Below are positions 25,458 through 32,361 of a DNA stretch of 64,000 nucleotides, piece after piece (the stretch's first letter is position 1; every line of letters begins with the position of its first letter). The position numbers and the translations under genes were made by a program. The notes below the pieces were generated by a model that searched no databases, was not told the origin of the DNA, and saw nothing but the letters and a program-made list of their open reading frames with translations. Source of the DNA: Planctomycetota bacterium (GTDB lineage Bacteria; Planctomycetota; UBA1135); NCBI GenBank assembly GCA_024229395.1, contig JAAESM010000004.1, positions 1-64,000 on the forward strand. The letters are read 5' to 3'.

Positions 25458-25475
25458 TCACCGGATGTCCGGTGA
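25458..25475. promoter_or_regulatory. 18-base perfect palindrome upstream of the interrupted secreted gene
   Basis: TCACCGGA-TG-TCCGGTGA reads as two perfect 8-base arms around TG, 43 bases before the ATG at 25519. It could be an operator or an mRNA hairpin. No comparable palindrome precedes the intact paralogue at 30637. Confidence 0.4.
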
Positions 25476-25518
25476 AACGGACACTCGATTTCCCACTGTC
25501 CCCGTTTTGAGGAGTTCC

Positions 25519-26523
25519 ATGCTTTTAGTAAGCATTCTTGCATGTGCGCCATTCGCGGCGCAGACCCCTATTGATGCGACCAAGGTGTCAGGATTTGAGC
25601 TACAGCCAAGTCAGATCACCACGAGCACGATGGGACGCGCGACATCCGCGTGTGATGGTTTCAACAGGCCAGACAGTCCCAACATGGGACCTGACTGAGC
25701 TGAACTAACCGGAGACATCGACGTCTTCGCGAACCAAGGGCTAGGCATGCTTCCCATGTCCTTGATGACTCACACTGGCGTTTCTGGCACCTACGCAACT
25801 TCCACCATTTCGAGTCGTTTCGATCATGGCGGTGGCTTGGTGTACGTGGCCATGGTGGCCGGTTTCAACACCCTCACCGACAACATCTTTGTCAAGGTAC
25901 AAGACAACGATTCGGACGGCATGTACGACCTTGTGTTCTTCTACTACGGCAACAATGGTGGTCCTTGGGGAGGCTCAACCTACTACTACGACTTGGCGAC
26001 TCCAACAGTCAGCGGATATATGACCCTGTCCTTTGACCTGACTGGAGACGTAGCCATGCTCGAAATCCAAAACGACGCCAGTGGCTTACTCGAGTTGTAC
26101 TCGGTGCCAGGCGTGTTGCCCTTGGCGCCTAACCTAGGCGTTGAATTCGGTGTCGGTACTTACGGTCCAGCATTCTTCGATAACGTTTCGATCAATGATG
26201 GATGCGGCACTGGCTTTACCTACACCTTGACCCAGCCAGTCGGTGGCCAGTCCACCACGCTGTCTGTCGTCAATGCCACTCCAAGTGGAGGCGTCTTGTT
26301 CGCATACTCCCTGACCGGCCCTGGCCCAACCATGACGCCGTTCGGTCCTGTCGACATGAGTCCTCCAATTACCCAGCTGCCGATGGTTTTGGCCGACTGG
26401 ACCGGTGCTGCAAACCTCACGGTTTCGGTTCCTCTGCGCGCAAGCGGCCGCATGGTCTATACCCAAGCTGCCGACATCGTCGCCAATTCATTGAGTAACT
26501 CCCACGCCGTGGTTGTACTCTGA
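25519..26523 (+). pseudogene. Secreted lectin-like protein interrupted by one in-frame TGA
   Basis: The frame is 334 codons long, exactly the length of the intact paralogue at 30637-31641, and both share a CD(D)FNRxDSPxMGPD start, the FDHGGGLxYVAxVAG and TYGPAFFDNVSINDGCG blocks, and the C-terminal TMTPFGPVDMSxPITQLP domain. At codon 60 (25696-25698) this copy has TGA where the paralogue has TGG (Trp). The 275 codons beyond have no further stop or shift, so the change is recent, a sequence error, or read through. GAGGAG lies four bases before the ATG at 25519. The product would be exported by a short hydrophobic N-terminus. Confidence 0.75.
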
Positions 26524-26581: not shown

Positions 26582-27018
26582 ATGCCCAAGCCATCTCCAA
26601 TCCAGAGGTCCCTAGCGATCGTGTTGATGGTTGGCGGAGTCTTGTGGGGAGCCTTCCTCAGCGCCATGTTCTACCGGGTTGAGGTTTTCGGTTGGCATCT
26701 CGAGTCACTCTATGGCCGCATTCCTTTTTCGGAGACTTCCTCGAGGTCTTCTCATTGTTGGTCCTGTGGTTCCTGCCGATAGTGGTTGGGGCTTTCCTCT
26801 AGGGTAAGCGTGGCAAGCTGCTGTGGCGTTGGACGTTGGGCCTTTACCTGATCGCCGTGACCATTCCTGAGATCCGTTTCGGTTTGCAAGACTATGCGCT
26901 CAGCAAGCGAGCGAAGCAGGCACCAGAGCAGGCCTTCGTCGAGGCGCGTGGCTGGCCAGATTGGGCTGGATCCGAAGTCATCTACGATTCTGAAGACGGT
27001 TTCCTCGTGGTGGATTGA
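26582..27018 (+). pseudogene. Membrane protein gene broken by a frameshift and a stop
   Basis: The ATG at 26582 opens a frame with a membrane helix (SLAIVLMVGGVLWGAFLSAMF). At the T5 run 26725-26729 the protein-like frame jumps; one extra T would continue it as FFGDFLEVFSLLVLWFLPIV, a second helix. That frame then meets TAG at 26800-26802, and resumes after it as GKRGKLLWRWTLGLYLIA and onward to a stop at 27016-27018. The original product would be about 145 residues with three helices. No family is recognised. Its end overlaps the 3' end of the sensor kinase gene on the other strand. Confidence 0.6.
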
Positions 27019-28709
27019 TTGTCTTCATGAGGCAAAGTCAAGCGGATCGCGCAGCCTTGACCAGCTGAGCTTTCCGCCCACACCTTGCCGCCGTGGCGTT
27101 CGACGATGTCGGCCACAATCGCCAAACCAAGGCCGCTTCCGCCACTTTGGCGCCCGCGCGAGGAATCCAAGCGCGTGAATCGCTCGAAGACTTTGGTCAA
27201 ATCTTTGGCCGCTATGCCTTCGCCGCTATCGCTGACCGAAAGCATGACGGCGGCGGTGGAATTGGATTCCACCGCAGGGGAAGCGCTAGCCTGAGCATTC
27301 ACCTCAATCTTGCCGCCGCTTGGAGTATGACGAATCGCGTTGGCGATGAGGTTGCCCAAGACTTGGCTGATGCGCAGGGCGTCGGCGTGAACGGGCGGCA
27401 GTTGGTCCGCGCCCTTGTAGCTCAACGAAATCCCTGCAGCTTGCGCACGGCTTTGCCAACGGGAAGCCGCTTGTTGGCAGATGGGACTCAAGTCCTGCGG
27501 TTGTCGATCCAAGGTCAATGCACCACGGTCCGCGCCAGCCAACAGGGCTACGTCGGCAGCCAAACGATTCAACACTTTTAGTTCTTGTTCGATCTGCTGG
27601 GCACAATCTTCAGGCGCTTGCATACCCGCCTTCAAACCAGCGAGCTCCAGTTGGATTACGCTTAACGGCGTATTGATCTCATGCGCCAAGTCCGCAACCA
27701 TCTGCCGACGTTGCTCATGTTGACCTTCGAGGGCATTCCTCATGTCATTGAAGGCGGTGCTCATGCGTCCGACTTCATCATTGGACTTCACTGGCAACGC
27801 TTCCGACGCCTCGCCGCGAGCCATCTCCTGACTTGCTGTAGTTAGGGCTCGTACTGGGGCGAGTAGGCGGCGTGCAAACCACCATGCGAGCAATAAGGCG
27901 ATGACGAAGGTCAGCGCCGCGCCTTGCAACAAAGCTTCGCGCACGCTTTGCAGGAAATTCGTTGCCAAGCCGCGGTAATGGCCTTCACCGGCGGCAACCA
28001 CGATGGTGGCGATTTCCTTGCCACTCTTCCAGGAATGGATCGTAGAACCGCTTTCGAGCAAATCTTCGTTGAGGGCAGCACCCAAGTCGGCATGGCTGGA
28101 ATCAAAGATGGTTCGGCCCAGCGGATCTGTTGCCCAGATCTGCGCATCTTCGACCACGGTCTCCAAGAACCATTGCAGCCGTTCTGGGAATGGCTCAGCC
28201 TCCTGCTCCGGGTCCGGGTCGCCGTCTTCATGCCACATCAAATACTCATGGACCACGAAGAGAGTGCTGGCCAACCAATCCACCTGATCAGCAGGGGAGA
28301 GGTCGGGCTCTTGGCGCAGGCGCGCAGCTTCCGCCTCCATGATCAAGCCAGCCAATTGCATGCCGTCCATGCCGGGGTTCGATGCGGCGATCACGTCCCA
28401 TTGTTCCCACATGGATTCAGCAGGGTCCTCGCCTTGTGCCTGTTCGAGCTGCCCACTAAGCATTTCGACCTCACCGGAGAACAGGCGTTGCAAGGCCGGT
28501 CCAGGTTCCTGCGTCAGATCGCTAATGTTCAACCAGGCCTCGAGGTAGATTGCCAATTCATAGGCCTGCTCTTCGGCTTCGCCCTGTGAGTAGTCGGCAA
28601 AATTCTCGCGTACCGCCTTGCCACTGAAATGCGCACCGAGCAATAAGGTGAGCAGCACCAACATGGCGGAACCAAGGAATAGACGTGAGCCCAAGCTGCT
28701 GAAGTTCAT
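26982..28709 (-). CDS. Sensor histidine kinase
   Basis: A 575-residue inner-membrane kinase. Helix 1 spans about 9-27, an unusually acidic periplasmic sensor region 28-261, helix 2 about 262-280, then HAMP, the dimerisation histidine H343 in DLAHEINTPLS, the N-box NLIANAIRHT, and G-boxes DSGEGIA and GGSGLGLAIV. It overlaps the response-regulator gene by four bases (ATGA). The stimulus is unknown; the sensor region contains DGDPDPEQEAEPFPE and matches no domain I recognise. Its neighbour, an exported acidic repeat protein, is a plausible partner. Confidence 0.93.
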   Translation of the reverse strand: MNFSSLGSRLFLGSAMLVLLTLLLGAHFSGKAVRENFADYSQGEAEEQAYELAIYLEAWLNISDLTQEPGPALQRLFSGEVEMLSGQLEQAQGEDPAESMWEQWDVIAASNPGMDGMQLAGLIMEAEAARLRQEPDLSPADQVDWLASTLFVVHEYLMWHEDGDPDPEQEAEPFPERLQWFLETVVEDAQIWATDPLGRTIFDSSHADLGAALNEDLLESGSTIHSWKSGKEIATIVVAAGEGHYRGLATNFLQSVREALLQGAALTFVIALLLAWWFARRLLAPVRALTTASQEMARGEASEALPVKSNDEVGRMSTAFNDMRNALEGQHEQRRQMVADLAHEINTPLSVIQLELAGLKAGMQAPEDCAQQIEQELKVLNRLAADVALLAGADRGALTLDRQPQDLSPICQQAASRWQSRAQAAGISLSYKGADQLPPVHADALRISQVLGNLIANAIRHTPSGGKIEVNAQASASPAVESNSTAAVMLSVSDSGEGIAAKDLTKVFERFTRLDSSRGRQSGGSGLGLAIVADIVERHGGKVWAESSAGQGCAIRLTLPHEDNQSTTRKPSSES

Positions 28710-29392
28710 GCTTGTTCTCCTTGAAAGCGATAACCCACGCCATGCACCGTCACAATCAACAGTGGGTCGGCCGGATTCACTTCTAGCCGTTCCCTCAATC
28801 GCCGCATCTGTACATCGACCGCACGGTCATAGCCATCGAAATCGCGATCAAAGGCGGCTTCGAGAAGTTCATTGCGACGGAAGACGCGGTCCGGTTGTTG
28901 CATCATGGTTGCGAGCAGGTCGAACTGCGTGCGGCTGAGTTCGACTGGCTGCTTGCGCACCGCGCAGGAGCGTGTTTCCAGATTCAGGTGGATCGCACCG
29001 ATGGTGATCTCCTTATGACCACCGTCGTAGACCCTGCGCAGGACAGCCTCGCTGCGAGCCAATAGTTCCTCGGGACTAAAGGGCTTGACTAAGTAGTCAT
29101 CAGCGCCGGCACGCAACCCTTCGACACGCTGCTCCTCTGCACCAAGGGCGGTCAAAAGAATGACCGGTACGGTCGAGAACTTGCGCAGTTTCTGCAGCAC
29201 TGCAATGCCATCCAAGCCAGGCAGCATGCGATCCAGGATCACCAAATCAGGAGGGGAGTCCATGATCGCGTTCAAGCCTGCCTGACCGTCACCGATGGCT
29301 TCAGCTTCGTAGCCGGCCTTGACAAAAAACGACCGCACCCAGAACGCGATGCGTTCTTCATCTTCGATGATCAGGATGCGGCGTTTCTTCAC
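28706..29392 (-). CDS. OmpR-family response regulator
   Basis: A 228-residue regulator: acidic pocket ED-E at 10-12, phospho-acceptor D54 in VILDRMLPG, T81 and K103 in YLVKPFS, and a C-terminal winged helix (about 130-225) ending RRLRERLEVNPADPLLIVTVHGVGYRF. It should be phosphorylated by the adjacent kinase and bind promoter repeats. It lies 29 bases after the acidic exported protein gene, suggesting that both are in one operon that may be self-controlled. Confidence 0.95.
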   Translation of the reverse strand: MKKRRILIIEDEERIAFWVRSFFVKAGYEAEAIGDGQAGLNAIMDSPPDLVILDRMLPGLDGIAVLQKLRKFSTVPVILLTALGAEEQRVEGLRAGADDYLVKPFSPEELLARSEAVLRRVYDGGHKEITIGAIHLNLETRSCAVRKQPVELSRTQFDLLATMMQQPDRVFRRNELLEAAFDRDFDGYDRAVDVQMRRLRERLEVNPADPLLIVTVHGVGYRFQGEQA

Positions 29393-29421
29393 GGCGATGG
29401 ATTGTAAGGGCTTGGCTTGGT

Positions 29422-30381
29422 TTAGAAATCCTCGTTCTCGTCGGAGAAGTCGTCATCGAAGTCCTCTTCCTCATCGTAGTAGAGATAGCCGAACAACTCC
29501 TCCAGCTCTTCTGCACCGAACTCCTCAAGCAGGTCGCTAAGGTCAATCTTGGCATCTTCGATGATCTGCTCGAGATTTTCCTCTTCAAGCGCTTGCCAAA
29601 GCTCGTCTTCTTCCATCTCCAACAACTCGGCCAGGAAGCTCATCGATTCCTCGAACCAGATCTCTTCGGCAAGGTGTTCGAGCAGTGCATCATCATGGAG
29701 CATCTCACTCATGTCTTCACTGAGCCACTCAAACCATTCGTTGGCATCGTCCTCTTCGACTTCCCCAAGGATGACAAGTATTTCCAACTCAGCTTCCAAT
29801 AACTCTTCGGCAAAGATGCTGACTTCTTCTAAATCGACTTCCATGTACTCCGCCACGTTGGCGATCGACGAGCCCTCGTCCATCCATGCCAAGAGCTCGA
29901 GCATCTCCATGTCAAAGTAATCGCAGCTTGCATCCAACAACCATGTGAGATCGCCAAGACCGAATGGGTCCTCTTCATGAAGGAACAAGGTGGTGTCGAT
30001 CCAATTCTCATCACGCCACTTCATCGCTTCCTCGCGACTGATTTCTTCTCCGAGTAGCATGTCCAGGATTAGAGATTCCTCGTAGGTTGCGAGGCTGGCA
30101 ATCAGGTCACTTGGGCGCGATTGGTGTGCAATGGCAACTTGTGCGCAAGACAATCCGTGGGCAAGAGCATCAAAAAGGAGTTCCTCCTCGATGCCGATCT
30201 CAAAAGCGACCACCTCAAGAATCTCGAGCATCATCTCGACATACTCATCGCCCTCCTCCAAGTACATTTCGCTTTCCAGGTCCATGTCTTGTGGGGCTGC
30301 AGCGCTCAACATCGGAGCGGTCAGGAATATGAGGAGCGAAGCCAACAGGAGTTGGCGCAATGGTGTCCCAAATAGAATCAT
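29422..30381 (-). CDS. Extremely acidic exported helical-repeat protein
   Basis: A 319-residue protein with a signal peptide (LLLASLLIFLTAPMLSAAA, cleavage near residue 29). Roughly a third of the mature residues are Asp or Glu and only five are Lys or Arg. Two units (about 68-123 and 162-218) follow one plan: a hydrophobic helix, a 'G-(S)-S-I-A-x-V-A' turn, a long helix, then 'GE-(I/V)-xxxxA-x-x-W'; a third weaker one lies at 248-284. The plan resembles DUF2680-like helical repeats. The tail is D/E-only in large part. The ATG at 30381 is chosen because the signal peptide starts there. It probably binds cations or a protein in the periplasm and heads the two-component operon. Function not known. 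Confidence 0.7.
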   Translation of the reverse strand: MILFGTPLRQLLLASLLIFLTAPMLSAAAPQDMDLESEMYLEEGDEYVEMMLEILEVVAFEIGIEEELLFDALAHGLSCAQVAIAHQSRPSDLIASLATYEESLILDMLLGEEISREEAMKWRDENWIDTTLFLHEEDPFGLGDLTWLLDASCDYFDMEMLELLAWMDEGSSIANVAEYMEVDLEEVSIFAEELLEAELEILVILGEVEEDDANEWFEWLSEDMSEMLHDDALLEHLAEEIWFEESMSFLAELLEMEEDELWQALEEENLEQIIEDAKIDLSDLLEEFGAEELEELFGYLYYDEEEDFDDDFSDENEDF

Positions 30382-30636
30382 GTTGTTATTCCGGGTTTGA
30401 AGCAGACGGGGTTCGCCTGTTGCCCAAATCATGGTGCCCGAATGTTTCAGCCTTGTTGCAGGGGCCAGAAACCCCAACCCCTTGAAAAAAACACGATTGG
30501 GTCCAGAAAGACAGTGAAAGCCCGAAATACAGGGCTCAACTAGGAATTCCTGTTATAGTCAGGGTGATGAAAAATTACCTGGAGTTCAACCCCTCGGATG
30601 AACTCTCACTCTCCTTACCCCTACTTAGGTAACCTC
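30382..30636. other. Intergenic region between divergent genes
   Basis: Contains an AGCCC/GGGCT inverted repeat (30519-30536), a palindromic AGGAATTCCT (30543-30552), and a TATAGT box (30554-30559) that could be a -10 for the rightward secreted gene. No gene is supported here other than an N-terminal extension from an ATG at 30598 in frame with the gene start at 30637. Confidence 0.35.
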
Positions 30637-31641
30637 ATGCTTTTGATTTCCACTCTTGCGCTTGCGCCCTTTGCTGTCCAGAACCCCATCGACGTAACGA
30701 TGGATCCAAACAGGCAGCCAGAAGCAGGCCAAATCATTACTAACTCCAGTCGTGCAGCTGCAGGTTGCGACGACTTCAACCGCGCTGACAGCCCATCGAT
30801 GGGTCCTGATTGGATTGAGCAGACTGGCGATATCGAGATTCTCGGTAACCAAGGTCACGGTCTAATCAACTTCTCGTTGATGACGCATGTTCCTACAAGT
30901 GGTCCTTACATTGGTTCCACCGTCGCGACTGACTTCGACCACGGTGGTGGTTTGAACTACGTTGCAGTTGTTGCTGGTTACTCTTCGCTGACCAGCTGCG
31001 TATTTGTGAAGATTCAGGATAACGACAGTGATGGCATGTACGACCGCGTCTTCTTCTACAACGGCAACAGTGGCGGTACCTGGGGATCCAGCACCTACTA
31101 CTACGATCTCGCCACGCCAACCGTGAGCGGTTCGATGACCTTGTCCTTCGATCCAGGTGGCGATATCGCGATCTTGAACGTAGAGAACGATGCCAGTGGT
31201 CTTACTGAGACCTTCACCGGTGACAACCTACTGGCAATCGCTGGTAGCCTTGGAACGGGATACGGTATTGGTACTTACGGTCCTGCTTTCTTCGATAACG
31301 TTTCCATCAACGATGGCTGCGGAAGCGGTGGCTTGAACTACGCCACCACTGGTTTGGTTGGTGGTTCGACCGCAACCTTGACCGTCTCTGGCGCGACTGC
31401 CGGCGGTGGTGTCTTGATCGGTTACTCGCTGACCGGCGCAGGCCCAACCATGACTCCATTCGGCCCAGTCGATATGAGTGCACCAATCACCCAACTGCCA
31501 GTCTTGACGGCTGATGGCGCAGGTGTTGCTGCATTGAGCCTTGGTGTCCCAGGACGCGCATCTGGCCTCACCGTTTACACGCAAGCTGCGGACTTGGCCA
31601 CGGCTACCTTGACCAACTCTTTGGCAGAAGTCGTTCTATAA
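30637..31641 (+). CDS. Secreted lectin-like protein with C-terminal domain, intact paralogue
   Basis: A 334-residue exported protein. After a short hydrophobic leader, residues about 44-230 start CDDFNRADSPSMGPDW, the opening of concanavalin-A/LamG-like beta-sandwich domains, and include FDHGGGLNYVAVVAG and DNDSDGMYDRVFFYNG. After NDGCG a 100-residue beta-rich C-terminal domain follows (GGSTATLTVSGA ... PVDMSAPITQL), a type often found at the ends of secreted planctomycete proteins. The start is aligned to the paralogue; AGGT lies six bases before it. An in-frame ATG at 30598 would add 13 residues and a fuller signal region. Likely binds surface glycans; inference only. Confidence 0.75.
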   Translation: MLLISTLALAPFAVQNPIDVTMDPNRQPEAGQIITNSSRAAAGCDDFNRADSPSMGPDWIEQTGDIEILGNQGHGLINFSLMTHVPTSGPYIGSTVATDFDHGGGLNYVAVVAGYSSLTSCVFVKIQDNDSDGMYDRVFFYNGNSGGTWGSSTYYYDLATPTVSGSMTLSFDPGGDIAILNVENDASGLTETFTGDNLLAIAGSLGTGYGIGTYGPAFFDNVSINDGCGSGGLNYATTGLVGGSTATLTVSGATAGGGVLIGYSLTGAGPTMTPFGPVDMSAPITQLPVLTADGAGVAALSLGVPGRASGLTVYTQAADLATATLTNSLAEVVL

Positions 31642-31801: not shown

Positions 31802-31807
31802 TAAGAT
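31802..31807 (+). promoter_or_regulatory. Candidate -10 box for the gene at 31816
   Basis: TAAGAT lies 8 bases before the ATG at 31816, with no Shine-Dalgarno between them. Confidence 0.3.
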
Positions 31808-31815
31808 TGGCGGCA

Positions 31816-32361
31816 ATGGAACCCACCCTTGCCGCCATCGGAGCCTTCTGTCTGCTATTAGCGGGCATGTTCCAATTGTCGTCGGTCGGGCGGGATAGTG
31901 CCAAATACCGCCTTACCCTGTTGCTGGGTGCACAGATGACCTCCTTGGAGCCATTGCGCGGTGCCATGCAGTCCAAGTCGCGCGGGCAAGTCGCGGCCTT
32001 CCTGTTGGTGGCGGGAGCTGCCACGATCTGCGTCGGCGAGATCATGCATCTGAACATCAATAGCGTGGTGTTTTATTCGATCCTTGCTGGCCTGGCCGGC
32101 TTGTCGGTGCTGCTGATCGTGTTGCAGGCTGGCTATGTCGAGAATGCCATGCGCCGTTATCTGTTGGCGCACTTGCGCGAGTTCCCATTCAGCTTCGAGG
32201 ACAATCTAGCCTTGACGCGTGAGATCGGCGAGTTGTTCGGCGTGTCCGGTTCGCATGAAGACACCTTGGAAAGTTATGTGCGCCAATTGCGTGAGCGCCT
32301 CGGCCTGAAGGAAGCGCAATCCAAACTGTTCGGCCGGCGCAGCCCGCACAGTCGCGCCTAA
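31816..32361 (+). CDS. Membrane protein of unknown function
   Basis: A 181-residue protein with hydrophobic helices near 5-20, 57-75 and 85-107 and a cytoplasmic C-terminal half rich in charged residues (LREFPFSFEDNLALTREIGELFG, then ESYVRQLRERLGL). No known family. The ATG at 31816 is preferred to a TTG 9 bases earlier because it starts the hydrophobic segment. It is a single gene between the terminator at 31672 and comF. Confidence 0.6.
   Translation: MEPTLAAIGAFCLLLAGMFQLSSVGRDSAKYRLTLLLGAQMTSLEPLRGAMQSKSRGQVAAFLLVAGAATICVGEIMHLNINSVVFYSILAGLAGLSVLLIVLQAGYVENAMRRYLLAHLREFPFSFEDNLALTREIGELFGVSGSHEDTLESYVRQLRERLGLKEAQSKLFGRRSPHSRA

Follow-up and report, generated by a model that had tools for sequence, protein, structure and literature searches.

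Does an exported protein of extreme charge, encoded at the head of a two-component operon, act on the sensor kinase of the same operon? The question is raised by a leftward trio of genes in a 64,000-nucleotide stretch from a Planctomycetota bacterium (contig JAAESM010000004.1; "the window"), in which the gene of an acidic exported protein (29422..30381, minus strand) is followed by those of a response regulator (28706..29392, minus strand, GTG start) and a membrane sensor histidine kinase of 575 aa (26982..28709, minus strand). Re-reading of the open reading frames reproduced the arrangement given in a preliminary description of the locus, with the regulator starting 29 bases downstream of the acidic gene and the kinase overlapping the regulator by 4 bases. 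Auxiliary proteins are a recognised and poorly explained layer of two-component signalling, and the extremely acidic accessory found here, a member of an undescribed family, seems to have a domain in common with the sensor of the kinase.

A conventional two-component pair with an extremely acidic exported protein

The Response_reg (2.9e-27) and Trans_reg_C (1.5e-23) domains of the regulator and the HAMP, HisKA and HATPase_c domains of the kinase all score above the curated cut-offs, which identifies an OmpR/PhoB-type two-component pair, as had been proposed; the nearest NCBIfam model to the kinase, BaeS, remains below its cut-off. By direct reading, the kinase retains its H-box (LAHEINTPLS), N-box (NLIANAIRH) and G-boxes, and the regulator its acidic pair, phospho-Asp and KPF lysine. 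Regulator orthologs in the two other species that carry the trio (G002 and G004) are 60-62% identical. No sigma factor gene was found in or adjoining the operon at the loci of the window, G002 and G004, and a search for OmpR-type direct repeats upstream of the operon gave nothing beyond chance (p 0.05 in G004, >0.4 in the others). At the other OmpR-type loci inspected within the family, no gene of an acidic exported protein lies upstream.

The acidic protein (319 aa) starts with a Sec/SPase I-type signal peptide (~residues 1-29). Judged by eye, the signal peptides of all four orthologs (window, L041, L042 and L043) appear SPase I-like and lack a lipobox, unlike those of lipoproteins. Asp and Glu account for 30% of all residues and, matching the one third first reported, for 33% after the signal peptide, with 1.7% Lys/Arg, a predicted pI of 4.05 and a predicted net charge of about -91. 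Its Asp/Glu content ranks first among the 54 frames of at least 250 aa in the window, the runner-up reaching 19%. The extracytoplasmic sensor of the kinase (~residues 33-258; 27936..28613, minus strand) is also acidic, as described before (20% Asp/Glu, 4% Lys/Arg, charge about -35), and strong acidity of the two proteins is common to all three trio species. At the other end of the exported protein, all four orthologs terminate in Asp-Phe (29425-29430 in the window), preceded by a tail that is variable in length and sequence; this dipeptide might be what an envelope PDZ protease or chaperone recognises.

Three repeat units of one predicted plan

The AlphaFold2 model of the acidic protein, made with the four orthologs (mean pLDDT 74, mostly 72-92 in the helical core), contains three successive units of one plan, each with a helix, a short helix pair with an HTH-like turn and a long helical hairpin, the third unit being shorter. 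Unit 1 (~residues 50-136; 29974..30234, minus strand; predicted helices 39-62, 66-74, 79-85, 90-110 and 116-135) and unit 2 (~residues 143-229; 29695..29955, minus strand; predicted helices 146-156, 160-168, 173-179, 184-204 and about 210-228) are also located by a unit HMM, and unit 3 (~residues 240-302; 29476..29664, minus strand; predicted helices 233-253, 258-267, 270-276, 281-288 and 290-301) is, in the window protein, the least well supported by sequence. When the acidic sequence was compared only with itself, no repeat signal rose above shuffles; the repeats emerged clearly only once the orthologs, a structure model and a profile of outside units were brought in. That independent profile, built on three units of secreted proteins from elsewhere, scores 14-24 bits against each of the four orthologs (best shuffle 8.4), most matches falling in register of the three units, and hhalign pairs unit 1 with the only unit of the outside protein P0007 (P 7e-7).

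In the opposite direction, the unit HMM built from the acidic proteins detects unnamed secreted repeat proteins from Paenibacillus (L056) and a distant Planctomycetota genome (L048/P0007) with E ~1e-11 and 5e-11, respectively. These proteins have the repeat unit in common with the acidic protein but carry one or two units instead of three and are, by eye, less acidic. The Paenibacillus protein is encoded on a plasmid of Paenibacillus cellulosilyticus (L056 1042-1848), and tblastn with it revealed a further secreted-type protein with the unit in Alicyclobacillus (L066 4797-5633); these two belong to no named family, yet occur in a distant phylum. At the Paenibacillus, Alicyclobacillus and L048/P0007 loci, no regulator or kinase gene was seen adjoining.

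The preliminary description had assigned the protein two helical units of DUF2680-like plan. The model and unit profiles replace two by three, and the related unit is that of the unnamed secreted proteins. DUF2680 (PF10925) is a small exported helical protein; it is matched by none of the four acidic proteins in Pfam, is absent from the Pfam matches of the outside relatives P0007 and P0008 (among the best 25 for P0008), and our literature search returned no paper joining it to two-component systems. As anticipated, Pfam and fold searches of 29422-30381 yielded no known accessory: no Pfam or NCBIfam family covers the acidic protein above cut-off except for a marginal DUF433/HTH-like match to unit 3 of the G004 protein (25.6 bits, cut-off 23.6), and no relative by sequence or fold was found in the PDB. 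We conclude that the acidic protein represents a hitherto undescribed family of accessories to an otherwise conventional two-component pair, restricted to one genus in the data examined.

Conservation and apparent decay of the trio

Among 101 relatives and 392 genomes of the phylum, acidic orthologs were found only in G002, G003 and G004, other species of the genus of the window, with 35-42% identity to the window protein; the distant genome among the 392 mentioned above (L048) holds a single related unit. A scan of ~85,000 species returned three loci, all from Planctomycetota MAGs, which are the G002, G003 and G004 loci by sequence and coordinates. G002 and G004 keep the order acidic gene, regulator and kinase, with gaps of few bases or overlap, and the same neighbours as the window (guaA on one side; small membrane-protein, comF-like and larC-like genes on the other). 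The kinase sensors, ~40-45% identical across the trio species, are of a type that occurs only in genomes with the acidic gene (three of three) and that was not found in the other family and order genomes searched. The expectation that the trio extends beyond a single strain was thus borne out by three species, but its range is narrower than had been implied, as the complete trio was not found outside these species of one genus among the 392 phylum genomes. Because it is kept in three species despite strongly diverged sequences, the trio is more than a chance neighbourhood, and the exported gene is linked to its regulator and kinase in the same order and place, as in auxiliary-protein systems.

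A tree of three flanking proteins groups (G000,G001) against ((G002,G003),G004), which most simply places the trio in the ancestor of the genus. In G001, guaA, a secreted-protein gene and the membrane-protein gene adjoin without the trio; in the genome of G005, whose contig breaks at guaA, neither the acidic gene nor the sensor was found; and around guaA of the outgroups G006 and G010 the trio is absent. The surroundings have features of their own. Two secreted-protein genes flank the trio of the window in direct orientation (25465-26523 and 30598-31641, both plus strand), share ~70% DNA identity over 590 bases and match no Pfam family; one copy is present at the trio-less locus of G001 and none adjoins the locus in G002-G004. 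A small membrane protein gene without assigned family (31807-32361, plus strand) adjoins the trio, or the site without it, in all genomes of the genus read there and also in G006 and G010. Recombination between the two secreted-protein copies, considered as the route by which G001 lost the trio, is not supported: the copies are only ~70% identical, and the single G001 copy resembles the second window copy over ~1000 bases.

In G003, the acidic gene is intact and lies only ~120 bases from guaA. These bases (L041 5185-5307) encode VKKDRMLPGMDGLEVLRRVREVSAVPVIRLTALN, in which an internal in-frame deletion has joined the first part of the regulator to its middle and a second deletion, reaching into the 3' side of guaA, has cut off the rest; the fragment is 66% identical over 32 aa, and no kinase of the trio type was found in G003. 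By its sequence, the fragment appears to be gene decay caught in progress beside an intact acidic gene, and an artefact of assembly is unlikely, given two separate junctions. The acidic genes of G003 and G002 have nearly the same dN to the outgroup G000 (0.576 and 0.578, respectively), and dN between them is 0.20, with dS near saturation. The equal rate is compatible with a function independent of the kinase, though it is no proof of one, and the intactness of the gene is weak evidence, because the loss of regulator and kinase may be recent.

G003 speaks against the exported protein acting back on the kinase, since the acidic gene has been retained after the loss of both regulator and kinase. 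It favours an acidic protein that is output only, an envelope buffer of cations or peptides or a structural protein that the kinase would induce without any effect back: the gene is intact though its regulator is a twice-deleted fragment and no trio-type kinase was found, and it has evolved at the same rate as in G002. Still, the regulator fragment is recognisable enough for the loss to be recent, and a pure output leaves a repeat common to the acidic protein and the kinase sensor (see below) unexplained. We regard this explanation as rather unlikely.

A weak, probable copy of the unit in two kinase sensors

The sensors of the G002 and G004 kinases carry a segment with the consensus IAAxxLxMxxxALxxxxxxQSLExxCxxxxxxPxxVLAAIMRxE, which resembles the acidic unit. 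When the unit HMM, composed of 12 acidic units, was searched against 652 ORFs from all loci analysed, the only matches beyond the acidic proteins and the two outside secreted repeat proteins were these two kinases (G002, 14.5 bits, E 0.0014; G004, ~7.6 bits, E 0.18; best other ORF, 2.4 bits). Shuffled sensors reached the G002 score in 0 of 2000 cases (p < 1/2000) and the G004 score in ~4 of 2000 (p 0.002). A reverse search from the kinase segment placed the acidic protein as top match outside kinases, in register and weakly (E ~0.06), and plain hhalign alignment of sensor and acidic protein gave P 0.03 and 0.08, which is suggestive only. In the plan and lengths of its predicted helices (97-108, 112-121, 124-130, 135-152 and 158-176), the G004 sensor follows acidic unit 2; its model is poor overall (pLDDT 50) and scores best around the unit, with 64-74 in most of it. 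The window kinase gave no unit signal in the shuffle-controlled test and is missing ~23 residues of the unit core; relative to G002 and G004, this deletion of ~23 aa (~28300-28400) removes the helix-turn-helix core in this species only.

The resemblance might instead be convergent, with Ala/Leu/Glu-rich helical hairpins alike by chance in three genes that merely share an operon. The scores are indeed weak, the profile of the three outside units does not detect the kinases, and HTH-like unit cores also weakly match unrelated HTH families. Against this, of the 652 ORFs the HMM of acidic units singles out just the two kinases of these operons, helix order and register agree, and the reverse search points back to the acidic protein. 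Convergence is an explanation that we consider unlikely, and the G002 and G004 sensors probably carry a weak but specific, homologous copy of the acidic unit. We propose that the repeat present three times in the exported protein was ancestrally also present, as a single divergent copy, in the outer domain of the kinase. The remainder of the sensor may be a CusS/Cache-like domain, judging from matches below cut-off: the CusS-like periplasmic sensor domain PF21085 matched one of the three kinases with E 0.036 (14.6 bits, cut-off 24.1), and a PDB sequence search with the kinase sensor returned nothing.

A possible feedback operon

We favour, at somewhat less than even probability, an auxiliary-protein ("three-component") operon whose exported product acts back on the kinase. 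In its favour are the tight collinear operon at one genomic place in three species, the confinement of this sensor type to genomes with the acidic gene, the unit resemblance in two kinases and the lack of an acidic exported gene at other OmpR-type loci of the family; the weakness of that resemblance, the poor sensor model and the missing upstream repeats count against it. The kinase would respond to a signal in the envelope, for which the simplest candidate is a ligand of positive charge (a divalent cation, polyamine or cationic peptide), as the strong acidity of sensor and exported protein in all three species suggests. The phosphorylated regulator would raise transcription of its own operon, and the exported protein would build up and lower the signal by soaking up the ligand, by docking on the kinase or by both. 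Any physical contact of this kind through the unit cannot be essential in the window species because its kinase has lost the unit core; this loss, together with the three units of the exported protein against the one of the kinase, fits competition for the ligand better than obligatory docking. For related reasons a direct anti-kinase of the CpxP/CseA type, binding the sensor and holding it off until release gives the signal, is improbable: the gene order is like that of sigE-cseA-cseB-cseC (PMC6767563) and a shared unit suggests homotypic docking, but the acidic protein is kept beside a window kinase without the shared core, and two strongly acidic partners would repel each other unless bridged by cations.

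A more specific form of the auxiliary-protein operon, which we put forward as doubtful, is that it makes a soluble, multi-copy and highly charged mimic of its own sensor element to titrate the signal (a "soluble decoy"). To our knowledge, based on a limited literature search, such a feedback design has not been described for two-component systems. If true, it would be a simple, testable negative-feedback design outside the cell membrane and would give a first hint of function for the repeat in the secreted proteins of other bacteria.

Comparison with known systems

Among periplasmic accessories, CpxP is the strongest induced target of its system and inhibits the kinase as negative feedback (PMC4985592). 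CpxP-CpxRA is a functional analogue, in which we claim no membership: the accessory of the trio is the first gene of the same operon and has a charge of about -91, and the acidic protein has no Pfam match to the CpxP/Spy family at E up to 1 or 5. HbpS is a secreted metal/heme-binding accessory for kinase sensing in the HbpS-SenS-SenR system of Streptomyces (PMC4991794); as an octameric heme/iron binder with no detected relation to the acidic protein, it is likewise an analogue in function. In the Cse system, deletion of CseA raises output, and sigE-cseABC of Streptomyces is described as absent outside one genus (PMC6767563). CseA, compared here by description, is a lipoprotein, and its operon starts with an ECF sigma factor, neither of which applies to the trio; in the order of exported protein, regulator and kinase and in the restriction to one genus, however, CseA-CseB-CseC is the nearest system on both counts.
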